Shown: positions 11,946 through 38,721 of the stretch, piece by piece
How positions within the stretch are numbered: the stretch's first letter is position 1
Layout of the letters: each line of letters starts with the position of its first letter
Assembly: GCA_016939365.1 (NCBI GenBank)
Contig: JAFGHD010000019.1
Location: 1-40,417, forward strand
Length of the DNA: 40,417 bases
Source: Bacteroidales bacterium
Lineage (GTDB): Bacteria > Bacteroidota > Bacteroidia > Bacteroidales > JAFGHD01
Reading direction: 5' to 3'
Notes under the pieces: generated by a model
What the model was told of the DNA's origin: nothing
What the model saw: the letters and a program-made list of their open reading frames with translations, nothing else
Databases searched by the model: none
Translations under genes and position numbers: made by a program

Positions 11946-11979
11946 TAAATACCGCAATTGCGGAGAGCGCCGGTATTTA
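11946..11979 (+). repeat. Inverted repeat in the leader of the C10 protease gene
   Basis: TAAATACCG (11946-11954) pairs perfectly with CGGTATTTA (11971-11979) around 16 nt. A second palindrome, CCGCAATTGCGG (11952-11963), overlaps the left arm, so two alternative hairpins are possible. No T-run follows. It could be a leader structure or a protein-binding site. Confidence 0.4.
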
Positions 11980-12062
11980 GCCAGGTTTCCCAGAGCCGGC
12001 TATGCTTCATTGTCAATATCAACAACAACCAAACAGTAGCGCATACTTCCAAATCCAGAAGG

Positions 12063-14576
12063 ATGATCAAATTTTACCATCTGCACATCACATCATCTTC
12101 ATTTTTGGGCTGTTCCCATGCGGGCATCTTCACCGCCCTTTTAATCTTGTTCTTTCTGAGACAGGGGCATTCGGAGGTCATTGACCAGCATCAGGCCTCC
12201 TCATTTGCAGTTGCATTTTACAGCAGCCATGCACCCGCAAGCCTGATTGCCAGGGATGCACCTTCCGTCGAAATGATCCGGCTGGTTGAGTATTCCGGTA
12301 TGCCGCTCTATTATCATATCCGGATGATCCCGGCCGGATTTGTCATCCTTGCCGCCCATGACAACGTGTTTCCCATCCTGGGTTATTCTTTTGAAGAATC
12401 CCCCGACACATTGTGGAATCCCGGATACCAGCGGTGGATGGAACGTTGCGGGATTCAGATCAGGCAGGCAGTGAAGGAGAAACTTCCTTCCTCAGCCCTG
12501 ATCAGGGATGCCTGGGAGCGATACCTTGAGTCGAAGCCTGTTACCGGGCATTACAGGTCACGTGTCAAGGGTGTGGAACCGCTCATGTATTCCAAATGGG
12601 GACAGAAAACCTATTACAATGCCTTATGTCCGGCCGATCCGGCCGGGCCGGGAGGTCATGCATATGCGGGCTGTGTCGCCATTGCCACCGCCCAGGTGAT
12701 GTTCCATTTCAGGCACCCGGCCCAGGGCAGCGGATCTCATGGTTATTATTCCGACTACGGTTTCGAGTATGCTGACTTCGGCAATACCAGCTATGAATGG
12801 AATGAAATGGTGACAGCCATACACCAGATGGAGAATCCGGCCATTGCGCAACTGATATATCATGTAGGCGTTTCCGTTGAAATGGATTACAGTGCGCAGG
12901 GATCGGGCGCCAGCACGGCCGATGTGGGTTATGCCCTGGAAACCTATTTCGGTTACGCCCCGGGAATATCATATATCGTCAAATCAGACAGCTCCAATGC
13001 CTTCCGTGACTCTGTCATCAGTTGTCTTTCCCGTGGGCTTCCGGTCATTTACCGCGGCGGCGACATGGGCAGCGGACATGCCTTCGTGTGCGACGGGTTC
13101 CAGGACAGCTGCTTTTTCCATTTCAACTGGGGCTGGTATGGTGATCATGACGGGTATTATTACATGGAAAACCTGAACCCCGCCAATCACAACTTCAATT
13201 TCTACCAGTGTGCGCAGATCAACATCCGGCCCGACCAGCCCTATCCGCCCAATTGCGGTGGTATCAGCCTGTTATCAGCACCCAGAGGCACCGTTTCCGA
13301 CGGCAGTGGTCACCTGAAATACCCGTCCGGCGCAGAATGCCGTTGGCTGATCGGAACAGGGACGGATAACGGCGAAAGGGTATGGATCAGATTCCATCAG
13401 TTCGATACCGATCCGGTGCATGATTTTGTCCGCATCTATGATGGAACAGATGAAACGGCTCCGTTGCTTGCCGGGTTATCCGGGCATTCCATTCCTCCTG
13501 CGGTCACCTCCACCGGAAGTTACCTCTGCATCATATTTGAAACCGATGACAGTTGTGAGTTTGGAGGCTGGATGGCGGACTACATGGTCTTCAGCGAACC
13601 CTTCTGCCTGGAAAACCAGGTTATGCATGCCCTGGAGTGCGGCTATTTCGACGACGCCAGTGGACCTTACCATTACATGAACCAGACTCACTGCCAATGG
13701 GTGATCGCTCCGTCTGATGACGATATCGACTCCATCGCTTCCGTCACTTTATATTTCAGGACCTTCCGTCTGGCCGAGGGTGACACACTGCATATCCATG
13801 ACGGGCCGGACCCCGGGTACCCGGTTCTCGCCCGCCTGACCGGAAGCCAGGTTCCGGAAGATATCACATCCGGCCGGAACCGGGTGTGCCTGGTATTCAG
13901 TTCAGATAACCAGTCAACTGATGAAGGATGGAGCGCAGGTTATTATTCCAACCTCCCCGTCTATTGCCAGGACACTGTGATCCTTACCCAGGAACAGGGA
14001 TACCTGGAGGACGGAAGCGGGGCCAGGAACTACATCAGCGACTCGGAATGTTACTGGCTGATCGCACCGTCCCAGGCCCAATCCATAACGATGGAATTCA
14101 CCAATTTTGACCTGGAGTATGGATACGACCGCCTCACCCTGTTCGATGCAGCCGTTGAACCCCATGAAGAGCTGCAGACCCTGACCGGAGATGACCTGCC
14201 GCCGCCCATAAGCATTCCCTCAGGAAAAGTGCTGCTGCGCTTCACCACCGATGAATCCGTTGTGTCTGACGGCTGGTCTGCACAGTATACAACCGTTGGA
14301 CCCGGGACTGGTGAATCATACGAAGAAGACTTCATTTCCATTTTCCCCAACCCGGTTTCCGGCACGCTGAGTCTGCATACCGGGTTGGATATACCTGAAG
14401 GACTTGACATCACACTTCGGTCGGTTGACGGACAAACGGCATGGCATTCAAGGCTTCCTGCCATCACGGCCAATTCCTCATTGTCATTCGATCTGACCGG
14501 AATACAACGCGGGATCTATATCCTGACCTTATCCGATGGGCTCATGGTCTCACATCAAAAACTTGTTGTTCAATGA
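12063..14576 (+). CDS. C10-family (streptopain-type) cysteine protease with CUB domains, T9SS-sorted
   Basis: 837 residues from ATG 12063. An in-frame TTG at 11958 would add 35 unlikely residues before the signal peptide (about 10-35). The SpeB/Spi-like propeptide is at about 40-125 (GFVILAAHDNVFPILGYS). The C10 catalytic domain (about 165-390) has the nucleophile Cys204 in AGCVAIATAQVM, His339 in GSGHAFVCDGF, and the HFNWGWYGDHDGYY block. Three CUB-like domains follow (about 398-512, 515-630, 635-743), each with paired cysteines or DGxxxxxPLLAxLxG motifs. The T9SS type A sorting domain (about 758-837) contains SIFPNPVSG and RGIYILTL. The protein is expected at the surface or outside the cell, self-activated by propeptide removal, with the CUB modules giving substrate or surface binding. 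Its stop overlaps the next start (ATGA). Confidence 0.92.
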   Translation: MIKFYHLHITSSSFLGCSHAGIFTALLILFFLRQGHSEVIDQHQASSFAVAFYSSHAPASLIARDAPSVEMIRLVEYSGMPLYYHIRMIPAGFVILAAHDNVFPILGYSFEESPDTLWNPGYQRWMERCGIQIRQAVKEKLPSSALIRDAWERYLESKPVTGHYRSRVKGVEPLMYSKWGQKTYYNALCPADPAGPGGHAYAGCVAIATAQVMFHFRHPAQGSGSHGYYSDYGFEYADFGNTSYEWNEMVTAIHQMENPAIAQLIYHVGVSVEMDYSAQGSGASTADVGYALETYFGYAPGISYIVKSDSSNAFRDSVISCLSRGLPVIYRGGDMGSGHAFVCDGFQDSCFFHFNWGWYGDHDGYYYMENLNPANHNFNFYQCAQINIRPDQPYPPNCGGISLLSAPRGTVSDGSGHLKYPSGAECRWLIGTGTDNGERVWIRFHQFDTDPVHDFVRIYDGTDETAPLLAGLSGHSIPPAVTSTGSYLCIIFETDDSCEFGGWMADYMVFSEPFCLENQVMHALECGYFDDASGPYHYMNQTHCQWVIAPSDDDIDSIASVTLYFRTFRLAEGDTLHIHDGPDPGYPVLARLTGSQVPEDITSGRNRVCLVFSSDNQSTDEGWSAGYYSNLPVYCQDTVILTQEQGYLEDGSGARNYISDSECYWLIAPSQAQSITMEFTNFDLEYGYDRLTLFDAAVEPHEELQTLTGDDLPPPISIPSGKVLLRFTTDESVVSDGWSAQYTTVGPGTGESYEEDFISIFPNPVSGTLSLHTGLDIPEGLDITLRSVDGQTAWHSRLPAITANSSLSFDLTGIQRGIYILTLSDGLMVSHQKLVVQ

Positions 14577-27667: not shown

Positions 27668-30600
27668 ATGAAACAGGCGATACGATTCATTTGGCTTTTC
27701 CTGTTCAGTACAGTGGTGATGGCGGCGGTGGGACAGACCACCGGAACCCTCACCGGTACGGTAACGGATGAACAAACAGGCGAAACGCTTCCGGGTGCCA
27801 ACGTGGTCATTCAGGGCACCACCATCGGGACGGCAACGGACATCAACGGCACATACACCATTCCCGGTGTTCCTGCCGGAGAACATGTGGTGATGGCTTC
27901 TTTTATAGGATTCCAGGATGTCACGAAAAAAGTGACCATTGTTGCAGGCGAGACCTTAACCGTCGGCTTCGTACTGTCGGAGGACATGATGATGCTGGAC
28001 GAAATGGTTGTGATCGGTTACGGCACGAAGCGGAAAAGGGATATCACCAGTTCGATCTCGAAAGTGCCCGTTGAGGAGATCAGGAACATTCCCACCACCT
28101 CTTTCGAGTCGACGCTTCAGGGCAAGGCGGCGGGTGTACAGGTGACACAGGACAACGGTCTGGCCGGCGGTTCGGTGACCATCCGTGTCAGGGGTACCGG
28201 ATCGGTCATGTCAAGCAGCGAACCACTCTATGTGCTCGACGGTGTCCCCATCATCACCGGACGGTACACCACTACCAGCGGTTACCCGGACCGGTCCAAC
28301 GCCCTGAGCCTGATCAATCCGGAAGATATCGAGTCGATCGAGATACTCAAGGACGCAGCTGCACAGGCCATCTACGGCGCCCGTGGCGCAAACGGGGTGG
28401 TACTGATCACGACCAAAAAGGGTAAGGAAGGGGAAACCAAGTACGACTTCAACTTCTCATCAGGCTTCTCGCAGGTGACCAACAAACTGGACATCCTGAA
28501 CGGTTCGGAATACCTGATGCTGGCCAAGGAAGCCTGGAACAACTCCGGTGAAGGCACCGAACGCGGATTCTACGAACAGCTTCCTTACGGCATCTACAAT
28601 ACCAATCTGTTGTATGAAGGCAACTACAGCGATTTCACCGAGGAACAGATCGAGGAGACTTACCAGGCGAACAAAAAGATCATTGACAACACCCACACCG
28701 ACTGGGTCGACCACATGCTCCGCACGGGCTACCAGCACAACGCCAGTCTGTCGGCCAGCGGTGGCAACCAGCGTCTGACATATTATGTGGGTGGTTCATA
28801 CAGCAACACCAGCGGTGTCATCATCGGCAACGATTTCGAGAGGATCAGCGGCCGTACCAACCTGGAGATCAAAGCCACGAAAAAGCTGAAATTCGGAATG
28901 AACCTGGGTGTGACGGGCAGCCAGTTCGTGAATGTACCTACCGGGTGGGCCGGCGGACTTGGAACAGCCCAAAGCCGTTCGCTGCCTGTCATGCCGGTAT
29001 ACAATGCCGATGGCAGTTACTTCGCGCCGCGCAGCGGCGTCAATGTGGTGGCCGATTATGAGGACAGGAAATACAAAGCCTACAGCACGTCGATGCTCAC
29101 CAACATCTATGCGGATTACCAGTTCCACCCGGGATTCAACTACCGGCTCGATTTCGGTCTCAACAATCTCTACCAGCGGGAGCGGAAGTATGAGGGCACT
29201 ATCACCCGCGAAGAGGCCAACGCCACCGACCGGAGGCTGACGGTAAACAACTGGAATGTGAGTAATACGCTTGGCTACAACAAGACATTCAACGACATCC
29301 ACCGTGTCACGGCCATGACCGGGATGTCATACGAACGCAACGGCCAGTATGGTGTCGAGTTCAACGGAAGGGACTTCCCGAACCCCTCGCTGGAAAATCC
29401 GACCAACTCGAACCAGGACAAGCAGTTCCCCTCGGCATGGCAGGAGGACTATGCATTCCTCTCCTTCTTCGGCAGGGCGGAATATGCCTTCAGGGAACGG
29501 TATATCGTATCGGCCAGTGTGCGCCACGACGGAAGCTCCCGGTTCGGCCCGGACCAGAAATGGGGTACCTTCCCCTCGGCCACCGTGGGCTGGATCCTTA
29601 CGGAAGAGCCCTTCATGGACAACATCTCCGTGCTGAGCTTCTTCAAGCTGAGAGGCAGCTGGGGCATCACCGGAAACTCGGAAATAGGCAACTACCGTTA
29701 TGTGGGACTTTACTACACCACGCAATATAACGGTGAATCGGGCATCGGACTGCAACAGATACCCAATCCCGAGCTGCACTGGGAGGTCTCCAACCAGTAT
29801 GACATCGGTATCGATTTCGGTCTCTGGGAAGGAAGGGTGGCAGGCGGCATGGACTATTATCTTACACAATCGGAAGATCTTCTGCTGCTCAAGCAGATAC
29901 CCCTGACCACCGGGGCCCGTTCCTATACAGCCAACCTGGGAGAGATCAAGAACCAGGGATTCGAGCTCTTCCTGAACAGCAAGAACCTGGTCAGGAAATT
30001 CAAATGGAACACCGACATCAACCTGGCCACCAACAGGAATGAGATCATCAACCTGGAAGGGCAGATCATATCGGGGCTGGATGTCGGAGGCAACTATGGC
30101 AACAACTTCGCGCAGGAAGGTCATCCCATCGGGGCCTGGAGGCTGGTGGAATGGTATGGTGTGGATCCCGGGACCGGGGTGGACCTCTTTGTTTTGAATG
30201 ACGGCAGCATCGCACCCTGGGACGACACCGATCCCGAGTTCTTCGACAAGCACTCCAAGGTGACCGGCAATCCGTATCCTGATTTCTTCGGAGGCGTGAA
30301 CAACTACTTAGAGTATGCAGGATTCGACCTCGGCATTTACTTCACCTTCGTGGTCGGCAACGAGGTTTACCGCGATGACGGCAAGTTCTTTGAGGGCGGT
30401 AACCTGGGCAGTAACTGGAACCAGATGGCCACGATCCTCGACCGCTGGCAGAACCCGGGCGATGTGACCGACCAGTCGAAGCTTCTCTGGAACAGCAATG
30501 TCTCCACCATCAATTCCACGAAGTATCTGGATGACGGTTCCTATCTGAGGCTCAAGAGCCTCACCTTCGGCTACACGCTGCCCCCTGAAAAGACCAGGAA

Positions 30601-30787
30601 GCTGAAGATGGAACGGGTGCGCATCTATTTCACGGCCTCCAACCTGTGGACCATCACCAATTACAAGGGCTGGGATCCCGAGGTGAACAGGGACTACAAC
30701 TATGCATCCAACGTGACCCAGAGCGTCACATACCTGAGTCCCCCGCAGGCGAAAACGTTTAATGTTGGCCTCAGTCTTAACTTCTAA
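27668..30787 (+). CDS. susC: SusC/RagA-type TonB-linked outer-membrane transporter
   Basis: 1039 residues. Signal peptide 1-22; carboxypeptidase-like regulatory domain about 28-105 (GTVTDEQTGETLPGANVVIQGT...DINGTYTIPGV); TonB box region DEMVVIGYGTKRKRDITSS; plug with LQGKAAGVQVTQ, IRVRGTGS, PLYVLDGVPI, SIEILKDAAAQAIYGARGANGVVLITTKKG; a 22-strand barrel ending in TFNVGLSLNF. It imports oligosaccharides together with its SusD lid. With two GH13 enzymes in the locus the likely cargo is malto-oligosaccharides. Codon use is strongly biased to G/C at third positions, as in highly expressed genes. Confidence 0.95.
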   Translation: MKQAIRFIWLFLFSTVVMAAVGQTTGTLTGTVTDEQTGETLPGANVVIQGTTIGTATDINGTYTIPGVPAGEHVVMASFIGFQDVTKKVTIVAGETLTVGFVLSEDMMMLDEMVVIGYGTKRKRDITSSISKVPVEEIRNIPTTSFESTLQGKAAGVQVTQDNGLAGGSVTIRVRGTGSVMSSSEPLYVLDGVPIITGRYTTTSGYPDRSNALSLINPEDIESIEILKDAAAQAIYGARGANGVVLITTKKGKEGETKYDFNFSSGFSQVTNKLDILNGSEYLMLAKEAWNNSGEGTERGFYEQLPYGIYNTNLLYEGNYSDFTEEQIEETYQANKKIIDNTHTDWVDHMLRTGYQHNASLSASGGNQRLTYYVGGSYSNTSGVIIGNDFERISGRTNLEIKATKKLKFGMNLGVTGSQFVNVPTGWAGGLGTAQSRSLPVMPVYNADGSYFAPRSGVNVVADYEDRKYKAYSTSMLTNIYADYQFHPGFNYRLDFGLNNLYQRERKYEGTITREEANATDRRLTVNNWNVSNTLGYNKTFNDIHRVTAMTGMSYERNGQYGVEFNGRDFPNPSLENPTNSNQDKQFPSAWQEDYAFLSFFGRAEYAFRERYIVSASVRHDGSSRFGPDQKWGTFPSATVGWILTEEPFMDNISVLSFFKLRGSWGITGNSEIGNYRYVGLYYTTQYNGESGIGLQQIPNPELHWEVSNQYDIGIDFGLWEGRVAGGMDYYLTQSEDLLLLKQIPLTTGARSYTANLGEIKNQGFELFLNSKNLVRKFKWNTDINLATNRNEIINLEGQIISGLDVGGNYGNNFAQEGHPIGAWRLVEWYGVDPGTGVDLFVLNDGSIAPWDDTDPEFFDKHSKVTGNPYPDFFGGVNNYLEYAGFDLGIYFTFVVGNEVYRDDGKFFEGGNLGSNWNQMATILDRWQNPGDVTDQSKLLWNSNVSTINSTKYLDDGSYLRLKSLTFGYTLPPEKTRKLKMERVRIYFTASNLWTITNYKGWDPEVNRDYNYASNVTQSVTYLSPPQAKTFNVGLSLNF

Positions 30788-30793
30788 CACGGA

Positions 30794-30799
30794 AAGGAG
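30794..30799 (+). promoter_or_regulatory. Strong Shine-Dalgarno sequence before susD
   Basis: AAGGAG ends 6 nt before the susD ATG at 30806. Bacteroidota genes usually lack such a sequence, so it is unusual here and supports the chosen start. Confidence 0.5.
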
Positions 30800-30805
30800 C
30801 GAATC

Positions 30806-32179
30806 ATGAAATTCAAAACGACATATATCGCAGCGTTGGTCCTTCTGACAAGTCTCCTGTTCACTTCATGTGAAAAATGGATTGACTTTGAACCGACCAC
30901 CTCCATCAACAGCGACAACGCGCTGACCTCCACACAGGGTCTTCAGACGGCCCTGATCGGATGCTACGACCGCATGCAGTCGGGCGACCTCTTCGGAGGG
31001 TATCTCTACGTCTCCGGCGACATGCTGGGCTTCAACGTGAAGAAATCCGGGGAGTATGCACTGGTTTACGAAGAAATACAGATGATGAACCGCAACATGT
31101 CGCCCGACAACCGCATCGTGAACAGCATGTGGGAGCAAGCTTTCTGGACGATCAATCAGGCCAACACGATACTGCAGGCCATTCCGGAGGTGAAGGATGC
31201 GGATATCGAGGCCAACCGTGACCGGATCCGTGGGGAATGCCTCTTCATCCGCGGGCTGGTATATTTCGAGATCATGCGGTACTGGGGCAATCCCAACACA
31301 GGCGAAGCGGTGCCTTTGCTCACCGAGCCGACCGGCATTGAGGGAAAGCCCTCGCGTGCCACCATCGAACAGGTCTACAGCCAGGTGATCGCCGACCTGA
31401 CCGAGGCGGCCGGCCTGCTGCCCGAGAACAACAACCGCCGGGCTACGAGTAAGGCAGCGAAAGCAATTCTTGCAAGAGTTTATTTCTACCACAAGGATTA
31501 CGAAAATGCCAGGCTTATGGCTTCAGAAATTCTACCAATTGATCCATCAACAACTCAAACTGATGGCTTGCAGGATGATGTCACCAATATTTACCATTCT
31601 GATCCCACAGATGAGACCATCTTCGCCATCATGGGCAACACGGCCGACCGGACGGCAGGCACCCTCAACGGATGCTTCCGCAAGGCCAGCTCGGCCAAGT
31701 TCAGCCCGGAGAACACGCTGATCAAGGCCTTCATCTTCACCACCGGCCATCCCGACTCAGTGGACCAGCGCTATGAAAAGCTCTTCACCTCCATCGAGGG
31801 AAAGATATTCACCACCAAGTTCGACGACCTCGACATGAGCGTGCCGGTGATCCGGCTGGCCGAACTCTACCTGATCCGGGGCGAATCCAGGCTGAATGAA
31901 GGCGACGTGAACGGCGCCCGTGAAGACATCAACGTGGTACGTACCCGTGCCGGGATCAAACCCATCGAAGGTACACCCACCTACAACGATTTCTATTATG
32001 AACGGTTCAAGGAGCTTTTCTATGAAGGCGATTATTTCCACAATGTGAAGCGTCTGGAGCGCACTTTCGTGAATCCCGACCCGAATGTTTCGGAGGAGAT
32101 ACCCTGGAACTCCAGGTCGCTACTCTTCCCGATCCCTCAGAGGGAGATCGATGTCAACCCGAAGCTGACGCAGAACTGA
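30806..32179 (+). CDS. susD: SusD/RagB-type surface glycan-binding lipoprotein
   Basis: 457 residues. Lipobox LFTSC (Cys22) followed by EKWIDFEP. The SusD fold has DNALTSTQGLQTALIGCYDRM, a TPR-like region (IRGECLFIRGLVYFEIMRYWG; TSKAAKAILARVYFYHKDYENARLMASEIL) and the C-terminal signature RLAELYLIRGESRLNEGDVNGAREDINVVRTRAGI, PIPQREIDVNPKLTQN. It caps SusC and binds the glycan. Codons 31442-31618 differ sharply from the rest: 20 of 59 third positions are G/C, against about 57 of 61 in the flanking codons. The stop overlaps the GH13 start by one base (TGATG). Confidence 0.94.
   Translation: MKFKTTYIAALVLLTSLLFTSCEKWIDFEPTTSINSDNALTSTQGLQTALIGCYDRMQSGDLFGGYLYVSGDMLGFNVKKSGEYALVYEEIQMMNRNMSPDNRIVNSMWEQAFWTINQANTILQAIPEVKDADIEANRDRIRGECLFIRGLVYFEIMRYWGNPNTGEAVPLLTEPTGIEGKPSRATIEQVYSQVIADLTEAAGLLPENNNRRATSKAAKAILARVYFYHKDYENARLMASEILPIDPSTTQTDGLQDDVTNIYHSDPTDETIFAIMGNTADRTAGTLNGCFRKASSAKFSPENTLIKAFIFTTGHPDSVDQRYEKLFTSIEGKIFTTKFDDLDMSVPVIRLAELYLIRGESRLNEGDVNGAREDINVVRTRAGIKPIEGTPTYNDFYYERFKELFYEGDYFHNVKRLERTFVNPDPNVSEEIPWNSRSLLFPIPQREIDVNPKLTQN
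31442..31618 (+). other. Patch of foreign codon usage inside susD
   Basis: By hand count, 59 codons have 20 G/C third positions (34%). The 31 codons before have 29, and the 30 codons after have 28. Both borders are sharp and the frame is kept. The patch encodes the TPR-like helix pair AAKAILARVYFYHKDYENA and the loop after it. Recombination with a diverged susD copy, or a chimeric assembly, would explain it. Confidence 0.75.
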
Positions 32180-33750
32180 TGGAACCCTGTACCCACCCAC
32201 GGGTTGGCTTCCAGCCAACCCGTGGGTTATTTGTTTTCCTCATCGCCCTCCTCTTCATCCCGGTCTCCTGCCAGCGGCAGCGGACGGGTGTCTCGTCAGG
32301 CCCTGATCTGACCCAAAGAACTTACTATGAGATCTTCGTGCAGTCCTTTGCCGATTCAGATGGTGACGGCATCGGCGATATCCAAGGGCTGACCAACAAG
32401 CTGGAGGGGATCCGGGATATGGGCATCGGGGGCATCTGGCTGATGCCCGTGCATCCCTCCCCCTCCTATCACAAGTATGATGTGACCGATTATTACGGCA
32501 TTCATCCGGATTACGGCACCATGGAGGATTTCAGGGAGATGCTGGAGGAGGCCCATTCAAGGGGTATCGCCGTGATCATCGACCTGGTGGTGAACCATAC
32601 CTCAGACCGGCATCCCTGGTTCACGGAAGCCGCCAGGGGTGCGGACAATCCATACCGCGACCATTATGTCTGGACGGAAGACACCAACCTCATTACACGG
32701 GAGCCGGAACACTGGCATACAGTGCCGGGTGACACCTCCGGACTGAAGTATTATGGCTTTTTCTGGCACGGAATGCCTGATCTGAATTTCAGCCATCCCG
32801 GCGTCAGGGAGGAGATCAAAAAGATCGGCCGGTTCTGGCTGGAGGATGTGGGCGTGGACGGTTTCCGTCTCGATGCGGCACATTACCTGTTCCCCGAGGA
32901 TGACAAAGAGAAGAACCATGCCTGGTGGAGGGAGTTCAGGGAAGCGATGGACGGAACCGGAAGAAGATATTTCATGGTGGGCGAGGTCTGGGGCAGCCGA
33001 AACATCATTGCACCTTACCTCAGCAAGGGGTTGCACGCCTGCTTCAACTTCGACCTGGGATTCAGGATCATACACATCCTGCAACACGGAAAGGACACGG
33101 ACCTCGCTTCATGGCTGGCCGGGACCAGGGAAGTCTACAGCCAGGCTGACAACGGTTACGCAGATGCCATATTCCTCACCAACCATGACCAGGAGCGCAT
33201 CATGAGCCGGTTGGACGGAAACCTTCAGAAAGCACGTGTGGCCGCCTCCCTCCTGCTCACCCTGCCCGGCATTCCCTTCATCTATTACGGAGAGGAACTG
33301 GGCATGCGTGGCAAGAAACCCGACGAGCAGATACGGGAACCCTACCTCTGGGGAGACAATGACCCGGCACAGACCTCGTGGGAGGAAGCGGTCTACAGCA
33401 CACCGGCAACGGTTGCCCCGCTGGTACTTCAGGAAAAAGACGAAGCCTCGCTTTACTATCATTACCAGAAGCTCATTCATCTCAGGAATGAATATCCGGA
33501 GTTCAACAGCGGAACATTCACTCCCATAGAGTCCGGTGATCAGAGGCTGATCGCATTTTCAAGAAGCCATGAGGGGCACAGGGTTCTTGTCCTGCACAAC
33601 GTCTCACAGGAGCCGGTCATTCCGGTATCGGAGCTGGCCCAAATGACCAGCGGGAAGGTCATCTTCTGCGATCCCCCCGATTCCAGGGATCAGATCAGGG
33701 ACGGTGTCATTCAGCCATTGACGTCAGCAGTATTGAGAATCACCTATTAG
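32179..33750 (+). CDS. susG: GH13 alpha-amylase-family lipoprotein (SusG-like)
   Basis: 523 residues. Signal peptide with lipobox IPVSC (Cys31), so anchored to a membrane, probably the outer. The GH13 barrel begins at TYYEIFVQSFADSDGDGIGDIQGL and has DLVVNH (135-140), nucleophile Asp232 (GFRLDAAH), acid Glu269 (MVGEVWG) and Asp337 (TNHDQER). PGIPFIYYGEELGMRG and a C-terminal beta domain follow. The DGDGIGD loop is the usual calcium-site pattern of this subfamily (oligo-glucosidase/amylase). No inserted CBM58 is seen, unlike Bacteroides SusG. ATG 32179 is the only usual start that keeps the signal peptide. A 33-nt palindrome sits in codons 6-17. Specificity between alpha-1,4 and alpha-1,6 bonds cannot be fixed by eye. 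Confidence 0.92.
   Translation: MEPCTHPRVGFQPTRGLFVFLIALLFIPVSCQRQRTGVSSGPDLTQRTYYEIFVQSFADSDGDGIGDIQGLTNKLEGIRDMGIGGIWLMPVHPSPSYHKYDVTDYYGIHPDYGTMEDFREMLEEAHSRGIAVIIDLVVNHTSDRHPWFTEAARGADNPYRDHYVWTEDTNLITREPEHWHTVPGDTSGLKYYGFFWHGMPDLNFSHPGVREEIKKIGRFWLEDVGVDGFRLDAAHYLFPEDDKEKNHAWWREFREAMDGTGRRYFMVGEVWGSRNIIAPYLSKGLHACFNFDLGFRIIHILQHGKDTDLASWLAGTREVYSQADNGYADAIFLTNHDQERIMSRLDGNLQKARVAASLLLTLPGIPFIYYGEELGMRGKKPDEQIREPYLWGDNDPAQTSWEEAVYSTPATVAPLVLQEKDEASLYYHYQKLIHLRNEYPEFNSGTFTPIESGDQRLIAFSRSHEGHRVLVLHNVSQEPVIPVSELAQMTSGKVIFCDPPDSRDQIRDGVIQPLTSAVLRITY
32195..32227 (+). repeat. Perfect 33-nt palindromic hairpin inside the GH13 signal-peptide codons
   Basis: ACCCACGGGTTGGCT (32195-32209), loop TCC, AGCCAACCCGTGGGT (32213-32227): a 15-bp perfect stem, followed by TATTTGTTTTC. 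It starts 16 nt after the A of the start codon and adds 11 codons in frame. It resembles a REP-type palindrome or an intrinsic terminator/attenuator placed between susD and the amylase. Confidence 0.85.
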
Positions 33751-35329: not shown

Positions 35330-36673
35330 TTACTTTTTAATCATTTTTTTGACGAGAAACTCATCAATCACATTTTCCAGTGTGGGATACCCGATCTCCT
35401 GAAGGTCATAATAGACGCGGGTGTTGGGTTTGTTGATCTTCACCACGCGGTTCAGGTCGATGGGGGTTCCGATGACCACGGAATCGCAGTCAGTTTTATT
35501 GATGGTAGCTTCAAGGTCCTTCAGTTGCTGGTCGCTGTACCCCATGGCAGGCAGGAGTGTGCCGATGTTGGGGTAGATGCGGAATGTCTCGGCCAGTTTT
35601 CCGACGGCAAAGGGTCTGGGATCGACCAGTTCCGTGGCTCCGAACTTACGTGCGGCGACCACGCCCGCCCCCAATTTCATTTCTCCGTGTGTCAGGGTGG
35701 GGCCGTCTTCGACCACCAGCACGCGTTTGCCCCGGATCACCTCCGGTTTGTCCACCATGATCGGAGAAGCTCCGTCGATGACGACGGCCCGGGGAGCCAC
35801 CTTTGCGATGCTTTCCCGTACCTGCTGGATGCCCTCCGGGGAGGCGCTGTCCATCTTATTGATCACCACCACATCGGCGATACGCAGGGTGACCTCTCCC
35901 GGATAATAACCCAACTCATGACCCGGCCGGTGGGGATCTACGACGGTGATGCACAGATCGGGAGTGTAGAACGGAAAGTCATTGTTCCCGCCATCCCAGA
36001 GGATCACATCACACCCATCCGGGTCCTGTTCGGCAGCCCTGAGGATGGCCTCGTAATCCACTCCCGCGTAGATCACATTGCCTCTCACCACGTGGGGTTC
36101 ATATTCCTCCATCTCCTCGATGGTGCACTTGTGCTTCTTCAGGTCTTCCAGGGTGGCGAAACGCTGCACCTTCTGGGCCGCCAGATCCCCGTATGGCATG
36201 GGATGCCGGATGGCCACCACCTTCAATCCTTTCTTCATCAGGTATTCAATAACCTTACGTGAGGTCTGGCTCTTACCGCAACCGGTTCTGACCGCACCCA
36301 CGGCGATCACCGGCCTGGTGCTTTTCACCATCGTCTCGCCAGGGCCGAGCAGCATGAAATTGGCGCCGGCCGCATTCACAACGGCACTTATCTGCATCAC
36401 CTTCTGGTAGGTCACATCGCTGTAAGCGAAAACACAATCATTGACATTATGGGCTTTGATCAGCTCCGGGAGCTCCTTCTCCGCATAGATGGGTATCCCG
36501 TCGGGATACATTTCCCCGGCCAGCACAGCAGGGTATTTTCTGCCATCAATATCCGGAATCTGCGCGGCCGTAAAGGCGACTACCCGGTAGTTCGCGTTGT
36601 TGCGGAAAAAGGTGTTGAAGTTGTGAAAATCCCTTCCCGCAGCCCCAATAATGATCACATTTCGCTTATCCAT
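35330..36673 (-). CDS. cpgS: Cyclic 2,3-diphosphoglycerate synthetase-like GTPase
   Basis: 447 residues, cytoplasmic. The N-terminal domain (1-115) begins MDKRNVIIIGAAGRDFHNFN, a Rossmann-like start, and has VFAYSDVTYQ. The P-loop domain has GAVRTGCGKSQTSRKV (126-141) with the phosphate loop GCGKS, WDGGNNDFPF (226-235), DPHRPGHELGYYPGE and the guanine motif NKMD (272-275). This matches the family named for the archaeal cyclic-diphosphoglycerate synthetase. In bacteria the family is widespread and the function is not established, so the symbol is by similarity only. It lies downstream of the GNAT/deacetylase gene (136 nt) but has its own good promoter. Confidence 0.82.
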   Translation of the reverse strand: MDKRNVIIIGAAGRDFHNFNTFFRNNANYRVVAFTAAQIPDIDGRKYPAVLAGEMYPDGIPIYAEKELPELIKAHNVNDCVFAYSDVTYQKVMQISAVVNAAGANFMLLGPGETMVKSTRPVIAVGAVRTGCGKSQTSRKVIEYLMKKGLKVVAIRHPMPYGDLAAQKVQRFATLEDLKKHKCTIEEMEEYEPHVVRGNVIYAGVDYEAILRAAEQDPDGCDVILWDGGNNDFPFYTPDLCITVVDPHRPGHELGYYPGEVTLRIADVVVINKMDSASPEGIQQVRESIAKVAPRAVVIDGASPIMVDKPEVIRGKRVLVVEDGPTLTHGEMKLGAGVVAARKFGATELVDPRPFAVGKLAETFRIYPNIGTLLPAMGYSDQQLKDLEATINKTDCDSVVIGTPIDLNRVVKINKPNTRVYYDLQEIGYPTLENVIDEFLVKKMIKK

Positions 36674-36809: not shown

Positions 36810-38582
36810 TCAGGTTTGCAAATTTAAACTGTCTGATTTCGTCAGTATACTCCGGGATCCGAAGAAGCCTGTAAAGAATGCCCTGGCATTGCTGCCCAGG
36901 GCCTGGATACGGTAACCACCTTCCTGTAGCACGAGGGTTGGGTGGTTCAGGTTTCCGATCATCCTGCCATTCTGTGTAAAATCACCAGAGGTGAGACCCC
37001 AGGTGCCGGTAGGATCGCTTTTCGCAGTATCCAGGCCGAGGGCAATCACCAGGAAATCGGGACCAAATCCCGACACTATCTCCAGTGCCCGGCCTAGGAC
37101 TTTCCGGTATTCTTCCGGGCGGGTTTGCTCCGGTAAAGGGAAATTCACATTATAACCGTATCCTGCTCCCTCTCCCTTCTCCTCCCGGAATCCTGAGAAA
37201 TAAGGGTATGCAAAGGAAGGATGGCCATGGATGGAAATGGTCAGCACATCATTCCGGTCATAAAAGATCTGTTGCTGGCCGTTGCCGTGGTGGAAATCGA
37301 TGTCCAGGATCGCCACCCTTCCAAACCGGCTCAGGTAGTTGGCTGCGATGGCGCAATTGTTGAAGTAGCAGAAGCCTCCGAAGACGAATTTTTCAGCATG
37401 ATGGCCCGGAGGCCGGGTCAGCACATATGCAGCCATGGTACCTCCCAGTATCTCGTCGGAGGCAGTCAGGACGCAATTCACCCCCCAGCGGGCAGCCAGG
37501 TAGGCATTCTGGTTGAGCGGAGTAAAGGTATCAATGCAATAGTAACCTGCTCTTACCGACAGCTCCTTCGGCGGACGGGCAGCATTCCGGATCGGGAAAA
37601 CATAGGGATACACCGACTTCCCCGGCGGAAGGTTGCGGCATACCCTTTTGAAATAACTGACATAACCGGAATCGTGCACATCAAGAATGAACTTTTCCGG
37701 GTATTCCTTCACTTCCCCCAACCGGAACAATCCGGTTTTTTCCAGCTCCCTGCGGATCCCCGCCACCCTGACCGGGGATTCCACGTATCCCCTTTCCCTC
37801 ACATGGTGGATCATGTGCTGATCATTGATAATCCAGAAGATCTTCCGTCTTTCAGGCAGAGTGGTTCTTACATTGAGGGCTTCTTCCTTTTTTCTGTAAC
37901 GGAACGGCCTGAGCCTTACCGGGTCCTCCCGGATGCTGTTGACCACTTTGCTGATGTATTCCACCGGACAGTAGTCTCTGTATTTCCGTTCCAGTATGGC
38001 CCTGACCACTTTCCGGGCGGTTTTTCCGGGAATGGAATCCCTTACCCCCAGGCCGTCGAACACAAGATACGGTGGGCCGTCGTCTTCGGGCTTCACCGGA
38101 GTCTCATACAGGGTATTTGCAATGGGTCGGGCGCCGTACCGCTCATAGAATGCCAGGCGCTTTTTGTTCTGGGTTATGGGGCCGGGATCCCTGTATAACG
38201 CCGGGTCGTCCGGAAGACACTCCAGGAAAATCCCAACGGAGCCCAGCGATTCAGCCTCCTCCCTCAGCCTTTCATAAAGAGATCCTCCTACGCCGGAAGA
38301 TGTCTTCCCGGGAGTCACCGCCAGAAAGTCAAGAAAACAGATTTTCAGGTCAGGCATGTGGAGAAAGAGGGCAAATCCACGTATGGCTTCATTCAGGTCA
38401 TCGGCAATAAACAAAATGGCCTGAAATTTATATTTGAGTGGATTGACCAGTTGCTCTTCCACCTCCTGTATCTTCTCCTCCCGAATATCGGGGAACTGCT
38501 CCCTGATGATCTGCCGAACCTTTTCCATGGCCCGGATATTGACATCCAGGTATGGATTCGAAATCTTACGGATTCTGAACAT
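36810..38582 (-). CDS. GNAT acetyltransferase - histone-deacetylase-superfamily fusion
   Basis: 590 residues from ATG 38582 (an in-frame codon at 38642 would add 20 unlikely residues). Residues about 45-165 look like a GNAT acetyltransferase (KYKFQAILFIADDLNEAIRGFALF, FLDFLAVTPGKTSSGVGGSLYERLREEA, RLAFYERYGARPI), with the SSGVGG loop in the acetyl-CoA position. Residues about 245-580 are a zinc deacetylase of the HDAC/acetylpolyamine-amidohydrolase/AcuC type: RPPGHHAEKF (His394, His395), ILDIDFHHGNGQQQIFY (Asp428, His430), IHGHPSFAYPYFSG with GEGAGYGYN, GLDTAKSDPTG (Asp518) and LQEGGY (Tyr557). All expected catalytic and metal residues are present. The substrate is unknown; the IHGxPxxxYPYFSG and GxGxGYNxNxPLP stretches lean to the polyamine-amidohydrolase branch. 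Confidence 0.88.
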   Translation of the reverse strand: MFRIRKISNPYLDVNIRAMEKVRQIIREQFPDIREEKIQEVEEQLVNPLKYKFQAILFIADDLNEAIRGFALFLHMPDLKICFLDFLAVTPGKTSSGVGGSLYERLREEAESLGSVGIFLECLPDDPALYRDPGPITQNKKRLAFYERYGARPIANTLYETPVKPEDDGPPYLVFDGLGVRDSIPGKTARKVVRAILERKYRDYCPVEYISKVVNSIREDPVRLRPFRYRKKEEALNVRTTLPERRKIFWIINDQHMIHHVRERGYVESPVRVAGIRRELEKTGLFRLGEVKEYPEKFILDVHDSGYVSYFKRVCRNLPPGKSVYPYVFPIRNAARPPKELSVRAGYYCIDTFTPLNQNAYLAARWGVNCVLTASDEILGGTMAAYVLTRPPGHHAEKFVFGGFCYFNNCAIAANYLSRFGRVAILDIDFHHGNGQQQIFYDRNDVLTISIHGHPSFAYPYFSGFREEKGEGAGYGYNVNFPLPEQTRPEEYRKVLGRALEIVSGFGPDFLVIALGLDTAKSDPTGTWGLTSGDFTQNGRMIGNLNHPTLVLQEGGYRIQALGSNARAFFTGFFGSRSILTKSDSLNLQT

Positions 38583-38721
38583 ACAGAGTATTTTAAAAAT
38601 ATGATTCCAGTGATAAAGATATAACAACCCACCGTGTCCCACGGATGATCATTCCACTCTCATAGCCAATCAGAAAATTCATCTGGTATCGGGTCATTAT
38701 TTCTATATCTCCCGCCTTGTT

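Follow-up and report, generated by a model that had tools for sequence, protein, structure and literature searches.

A single-chain GNAT acetyltransferase and ApaH-type deacetylase fusion, associated with a predicted beta-lysine/ATP-grasp gene set

Analysis of a 40,417-nucleotide stretch of DNA from a Bacteroidales bacterium (contig JAFGHD010000019.1 of assembly GCA_016939365.1; hereafter the window) revealed on the reverse strand, at positions 36810..38582, one gene that encodes an acetyltransferase domain joined to a deacetylase domain, with both folds and their residues intact. The open reading frame starts with ATG at position 38582 and encodes 590 amino acid residues; a longer frame from an alternative GTG start at 38642 is unlikely, because the start methionine is invariant across 74 aligned homologues. 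The protein consists of an N-terminal GNAT acetyltransferase domain (residues 1 to ~182; 38037..38582, reverse strand), recognized by Pfam Acetyltransf_1, AlphaFold2 and Foldseek; a two-helix segment plus linker (residues 183-266; 37785..38036, reverse strand), with model confidence low from about residue 230; and an ApaH-type zinc deacetylase domain (residues 267-575; 36858..37784, reverse strand), assigned from Pfam, structure matches and residues. In the window protein, Pfam Acetyltransf_1 was matched at residues 20-127 (E = 3.2e-5, 24.6 bits against a cut-off of 20.7) and Hist_deacetyl at residues 267-571 (E = 2.3e-73), and single-sequence Pfam scans found the two families in 67 (at E ≤ 0.1) and 74 of the 74 fusion homologues, respectively. 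The AlphaFold2 model of the whole chain, built from the 74-row alignment, had a pLDDT of 86. The union of a GNAT-like domain and a zinc deacetylase in one chain, as claimed in the original prediction, is borne out by Pfam, AlphaFold2 and Foldseek; acetyl transfer and deacetylation are the activities predicted for this protein. A GTPase-like gene (35330..36673, reverse strand) follows the fusion 136 bases downstream in the same orientation; its product resembles CobW weakly, with no curated family above cut-off, and it is not a conserved neighbour in the other loci.

When modelled alone with AlphaFold2, residues 1-227 gave a pLDDT of 93.8 and a pTM of 0.90, the strands and helices following one another as in a GNAT, and the top Foldseek matches of this model were all GNATs (GCN5, AAC(6'); best E = 1.5e-8). 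An N-terminus of another fold is ruled out by this model, its Foldseek matches and the Pfam scans of the homologues, and the domain boundaries first proposed (residues 45-165) proved too tight, the fold extending over residues ~1-176. The acetyl-CoA loop T-S-S-G-V-G-G (residues 94-100; 38283..38303, reverse strand), described initially as only loosely conserved from its SSGVGG, is better kept than that: the consensus of the family is T-G-x-G-x-G-G, and G97 and G99 are invariant in 74/74 fusions (scored on the loop motif Q/R-x-x-G-x-G/A); what is missing is the usual Q/R at the third position ahead of G97, mostly replaced by Thr. Y146, the tyrosine of an FYxxYG motif, is likewise invariant in all 74 homologues; E121-P124 are invariant too, but lie inside the search pattern, which inflates their invariance, and were not counted. 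Since the loop glycines and the FYxxYG tyrosine are invariant in all rows, a working enzyme is favoured over a pure sensor, and judging from these residues the GNAT domain is more likely to be catalytically active.

The catalytic residues H394, H395, D427 and Y557 and the zinc ligands D429, H431 and D518 are all present in the window protein and invariant in the 74 fusions, except D429 (73 of 74), in agreement with the intact zinc deacetylase (HH pair, DxH, second Asp and Tyr) seen at the outset. In comparisons of the whole fusion model with known structures, the ApaH entries 3men, 6phr and 3q9b were matched with E values of about 1e-27. Bacterial ApaH (cluster 4 in PMC11532494, which surveyed the classical deacylases of bacteria in 2024; PDB 6phr, 3q9b, 9gkz) are marked by the motifs RPPGHH and EGGY, a specificity-loop Arg95, a PIS gatekeeper, a head-to-head dimer and activity on acetylpolyamines. 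The fusion resembles these enzymes in its deacetylase domain, in its catalytic and zinc residues, and in the invariant RPPGHH (R390-H395), EGGY (E554-Y557) and R332, the counterpart of Arg95. It differs from them by the GNAT domain in front, by its place in a KamA/ATP-grasp gene set, and by the gatekeeper, where P524-T525-G526 (37005..37013, reverse strand) stands at the place of PIS in bacterial ApaH or PEG in HDAC10, PTG being found in 74/74 fusions. Moreover, the Glu/His of ApaH position 106 is mostly Pro, Ser or Ala in the fusions, and ApaH D163 is not conserved. The gatekeeper replacement and the change at position 106, together with the genomic context, argue for an amine other than a polyamine as the substrate. 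Some stand-alone ApaH-like proteins also vary at the PIS site (DPLG, DPIG).

A GTDB scan in which only the GNAT part served as query (the first 246 residues from each of three homologues) yielded 80 loci and revealed no free-standing version of this GNAT. At 77 of these loci a single open frame covers the entire fusion, the others being two contig ends (L015, L063) and L087, and in the deacetylase-domain tree all fusions form one clade (branch support 98), separate from ApaH and HDAC-like proteins that stand alone. The identical single frame at 77 loci rules out an assembly joint, and the doubt raised originally, that the homologues might be two separate genes, is settled in favour of a true fusion. 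The carriers are spread over more than 12 phyla by record (Bacteroidota, Thermodesulfobacteriota, Myxococcota, Pseudomonadota, Chloroflexota, Acidobacteriota, Planctomycetota, Synergistota, Ignavibacteriota, Calditrichota, Spirochaetota, Fusobacteriota, Lentisphaerota, and others) and include two isolates, Desulfuromusa kysingii and Desulfoferrobacter suflitae. In Bacteroidota the fusion is rare, being present in 3/60 relatives, 1/295 genomes in the class and 2/395 in the phylum. Two loci recorded as Proteobacteria and Desulfonema limicola (L014, L018) encode fusion proteins that fall inside the Bacteroidota group, as would be expected of misnamed or misbinned MAGs or of transfer. L087 (3894-5171, forward strand) carries a 426-aa version without the part matching residues 366-518, which has lost its zinc ligands and kept the GNAT domain; it is a lone case from a MAG, where an assembly deletion is possible. 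A match on a plasmid (H1) that appeared to reach into the GNAT part turned out to be an unremarkable ApaH of 344 aa, encoded next to a glutamine-synthetase-like gene. The window's genome encodes, on another contig (C69, L002), a second, stand-alone HDAC-like protein of ~300 aa with 40% identity over residues 383-573, and a gene of this kind is also present in G001 (L010), one of the other two fusion-carrying genomes in the order.

Clustering of the genes neighbouring the fusion at the 80 loci revealed two dominant families, KamA-type radical SAM aminomutases and Ddl-like ATP-grasp ligases, with a small GNAT gene as a further recurrent neighbour, a four-gene context missed in the original prediction. 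By tblastn, one or more of the four partner genes were found at 35/80 loci (KamA at 31, ligase 1 at 32, ligase 2 at 31 and the small GNAT at 29), and KamA, a ligase and the small GNAT occurred together at 27/80. The genes of these sets mostly overlap or lie close together and run in the same direction, in varied orders: KamA-ligase-ligase-fusion-GNAT, KamA-ligase-ligase-GNAT-fusion, KamA-fusion-ligase-ligase-GNAT, and ligase-ligase-GNAT-KamA either preceded or followed by the fusion; two loci have operon and fusion in divergent orientation. Linkage to the operon changes at least 14 times on the deacetylase tree and is therefore not one inherited arrangement. In a Desulfobacteraceae MAG (L076, 5238-7487, forward strand), the small GNAT forms the C-terminus of a 750-aa triple fusion, GNAT-ApaH-GNAT. 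Beside the operon lie a Na/Ca exchanger and a further GNAT in L035 (6100-7828), and an M20 peptidase, an MgtE transporter and a further GNAT in L039 (937-3994), the only two loci with ion transport next to the gene set. A comparison with PADLOC gave no match that would link the fusion to anti-phage defence.

In the window itself none of the four partner genes stands beside the fusion. They are encoded head to tail (KamA, ligase 1, ligase 2, small GNAT) on another contig of the same genome (C56, L101, 4728-8543, forward strand), and the operon is likewise on a contig separate from the fusion in the other two fusion genomes of the order (G001, G027). Among the 42 genomes with an unlinked fusion, a ligase 1 homologue was found in 37 at E ≤ 1e-40, of which 11 have E values from 1e-40 to 1e-80, a range shared with the general Bacteroidota background, and in 26 at E ≤ 1e-80, compared with 3/395 Bacteroidota at the latter threshold, a comparison that mixes phyla and serves as a guide, not a probability. 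The 5/42 genomes with no ligase 1 may be incomplete MAGs. Conversely, ligase 1 is present in 9/60 relatives and the fusion in only 3/60, and fusion-free operons, common in Bacteroidota, were read directly in L120, L121 and L125. Because the operon often exists without it, the fusion is an accessory of the predicted pathway and not a requirement. The raw count of this ATP-grasp type in Bacteroidota (53/395) is misleading, since 50 of the matches form a second group (up to 41% identity), some members of which lie in the same kind of operon without the fusion.

The partner KamA aligns to 2a5h with E = 3e-121 and keeps, in 28/28 sequences, the three cluster cysteines, the PLP lysine and the residues corresponding to R134, D293 and D330 of LAM (lysine 2,3-aminomutase), which hold lysine there by its carboxylate and epsilon-amine. 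The retention of these residues points to lysine as the likely substrate of KamA and to beta-lysine as the likely first product of the pathway. KamA is nearer to AblA than to EpmB (452 against 243 bits), and its score against the AblA model TIGR03820 lies below the curated cut-off of 525. Ligases 1 and 2, encoded by tandem genes, share the ATP-grasp fold and Dala_Dala_lig_C domain of Ddl, which suggests that amide bonds are made in the predicted pathway; unlike Ddl, they lie below all NCBIfam Ddl cut-offs (ligase 1 with 144 bits, under a cut-off of 243; ligase 2 without a match at 1e-35), and the true housekeeping Ddl of the window's genome is a separate gene. The small GNAT of the operon has a canonical acetyl-CoA loop. 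In the EpmB/EpmA system, which beta-lysylates elongation factor P, a KamA-family enzyme also feeds beta-lysine to a ligase, but there the ligase is tRNA-synthetase-like and not an ATP-grasp enzyme. A lysine 2,3-aminomutase is found together with a GNAT in the AblA/AblB pathway of the osmolyte N-epsilon-acetyl-beta-lysine (PMC3543383, PMC9337991); that pathway has nothing corresponding to the two ATP-grasp ligases or the deacetylase fusion.

The best explanation, which we hold to be about as likely as not, is that the fusion acts as a bifunctional enzyme and determines whether a beta-lysine-derived metabolite, made by the ATP-grasp ligases, is acetylated. KamA would convert L-lysine to beta-lysine, the two Ddl-like ligases would couple other building blocks to it, with beta-lysine as the acid or the amine partner, and the small GNAT would acylate an amine; the N-terminal GNAT of the fusion would add an acetyl group from acetyl-CoA to an amine of an intermediate or product, and the ApaH-type domain would remove it from an amine of the same compound. 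Both the shared substrate of the two domains and the direction of flow are parts of this proposal. Such a cycle could serve the tailoring and turnover of a finished compound or the blocking and unblocking of a second amino group during ligation, the former being somewhat more likely since operons that lack the fusion occur as well. This explanation draws on linkage, co-occurrence, the operon in the window's own genome, the triple fusion, the KamA residues and the intact catalytic features, and has against it the frequent operons without the fusion, the GNAT loop without Q/R and the five genomes without ligase 1. More tentatively, the set may constitute a previously undescribed, widely scattered pathway that makes a beta-lysine amide or peptide with paired ATP-grasp ligases, one protein acetylating and deacetylating the product in a block/unblock or on/off cycle.

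The original prediction had envisaged that a single small substrate, such as a polyamine, is acetylated and deacetylated in a closed cycle. The cycle stays plausible, but its polyamine version, with spermidine, putrescine or a similar amine acetylated by the GNAT and deacetylated by the ApaH domain and with an indirect connection to the KamA operon, now seems rather unlikely: the nearest solved relatives are acetylpolyamine amidohydrolases and RPPGHH, EGGY and the Arg95 counterpart are kept, yet the PTG gatekeeper, the altered position 106, the loss of D163 and the beta-lysine/ATP-grasp gene context all weaken it, and no recurrent polyamine gene family was found among the neighbours at the 80 loci. 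The idea of a GNAT domain that binds acetyl-CoA or substrate without transfer and controls the deacetylase, also raised originally, retains the replaced Q/R and the presence in the operon of a second GNAT with a canonical loop, but we hold it improbable, as the invariance of G97, G99 and Y146 exceeds what a mere binding domain needs.

Bacillus AcuA (a GNAT) and AcuC (a deacetylase) unite opposed activities in one genetic system, as predicted for the fusion, although there they are two proteins, the deacetylase is not of the ApaH type and the gene neighbours are different. That the fusion would similarly modify a partner protein, e.g., a ligase of the operon, is very unlikely; the GNAT fold is nearest to GCN5, and PsApaH, an ApaH, also deacetylates an acetylated protein in vitro (PMC11532494), but the best matches of the deacetylase are of ApaH and not AcuC type, and neighbour clustering at the 80 loci revealed no recurrent acetyl-CoA synthetase. 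Control of an osmolyte, where the set would make N-acetyl-beta-lysine or its peptide as a compatible solute and the fusion would add or remove the acetyl group as salt changes, is an unlikely alternative that accords with the AblA/AblB logic of KamA plus GNAT (PMC3543383, PMC9337991) and with the marine or saline record names of several carriers; against it, AblA/AblB needs no ligases, the fusion has no AblB model match, and no sodium riboswitch or other Rfam element was found upstream of the operons in nine loci.

Searches of an open-access library yielded no account of either the fusion or the KamA/ATP-grasp/GNAT set, an earlier notice being possible, e.g., in ATP-grasp surveys; the words "fused" and "two-domain" are absent from the 2024 deacylase survey (PMC11532494), and the sections of it considered here contain no mention of a GNAT fusion. 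It is unusual for one conserved protein to combine predicted opposed acetylation activities, and the fusion offers a way into a set of four to five genes resembling an undescribed beta-lysine pathway, carried by many sediment, groundwater and marine bacteria. The two isolates among the carriers make its product and function directly testable. Elsewhere in the window, a protein with a Peptidase C10 domain and three CUB domains (11958-14576, forward strand) is a secreted protease by its domains, and a SusC/SusD pair followed by an alpha-amylase family protein (27668-33750, forward strand) represents an ordinary glycan utilisation locus.
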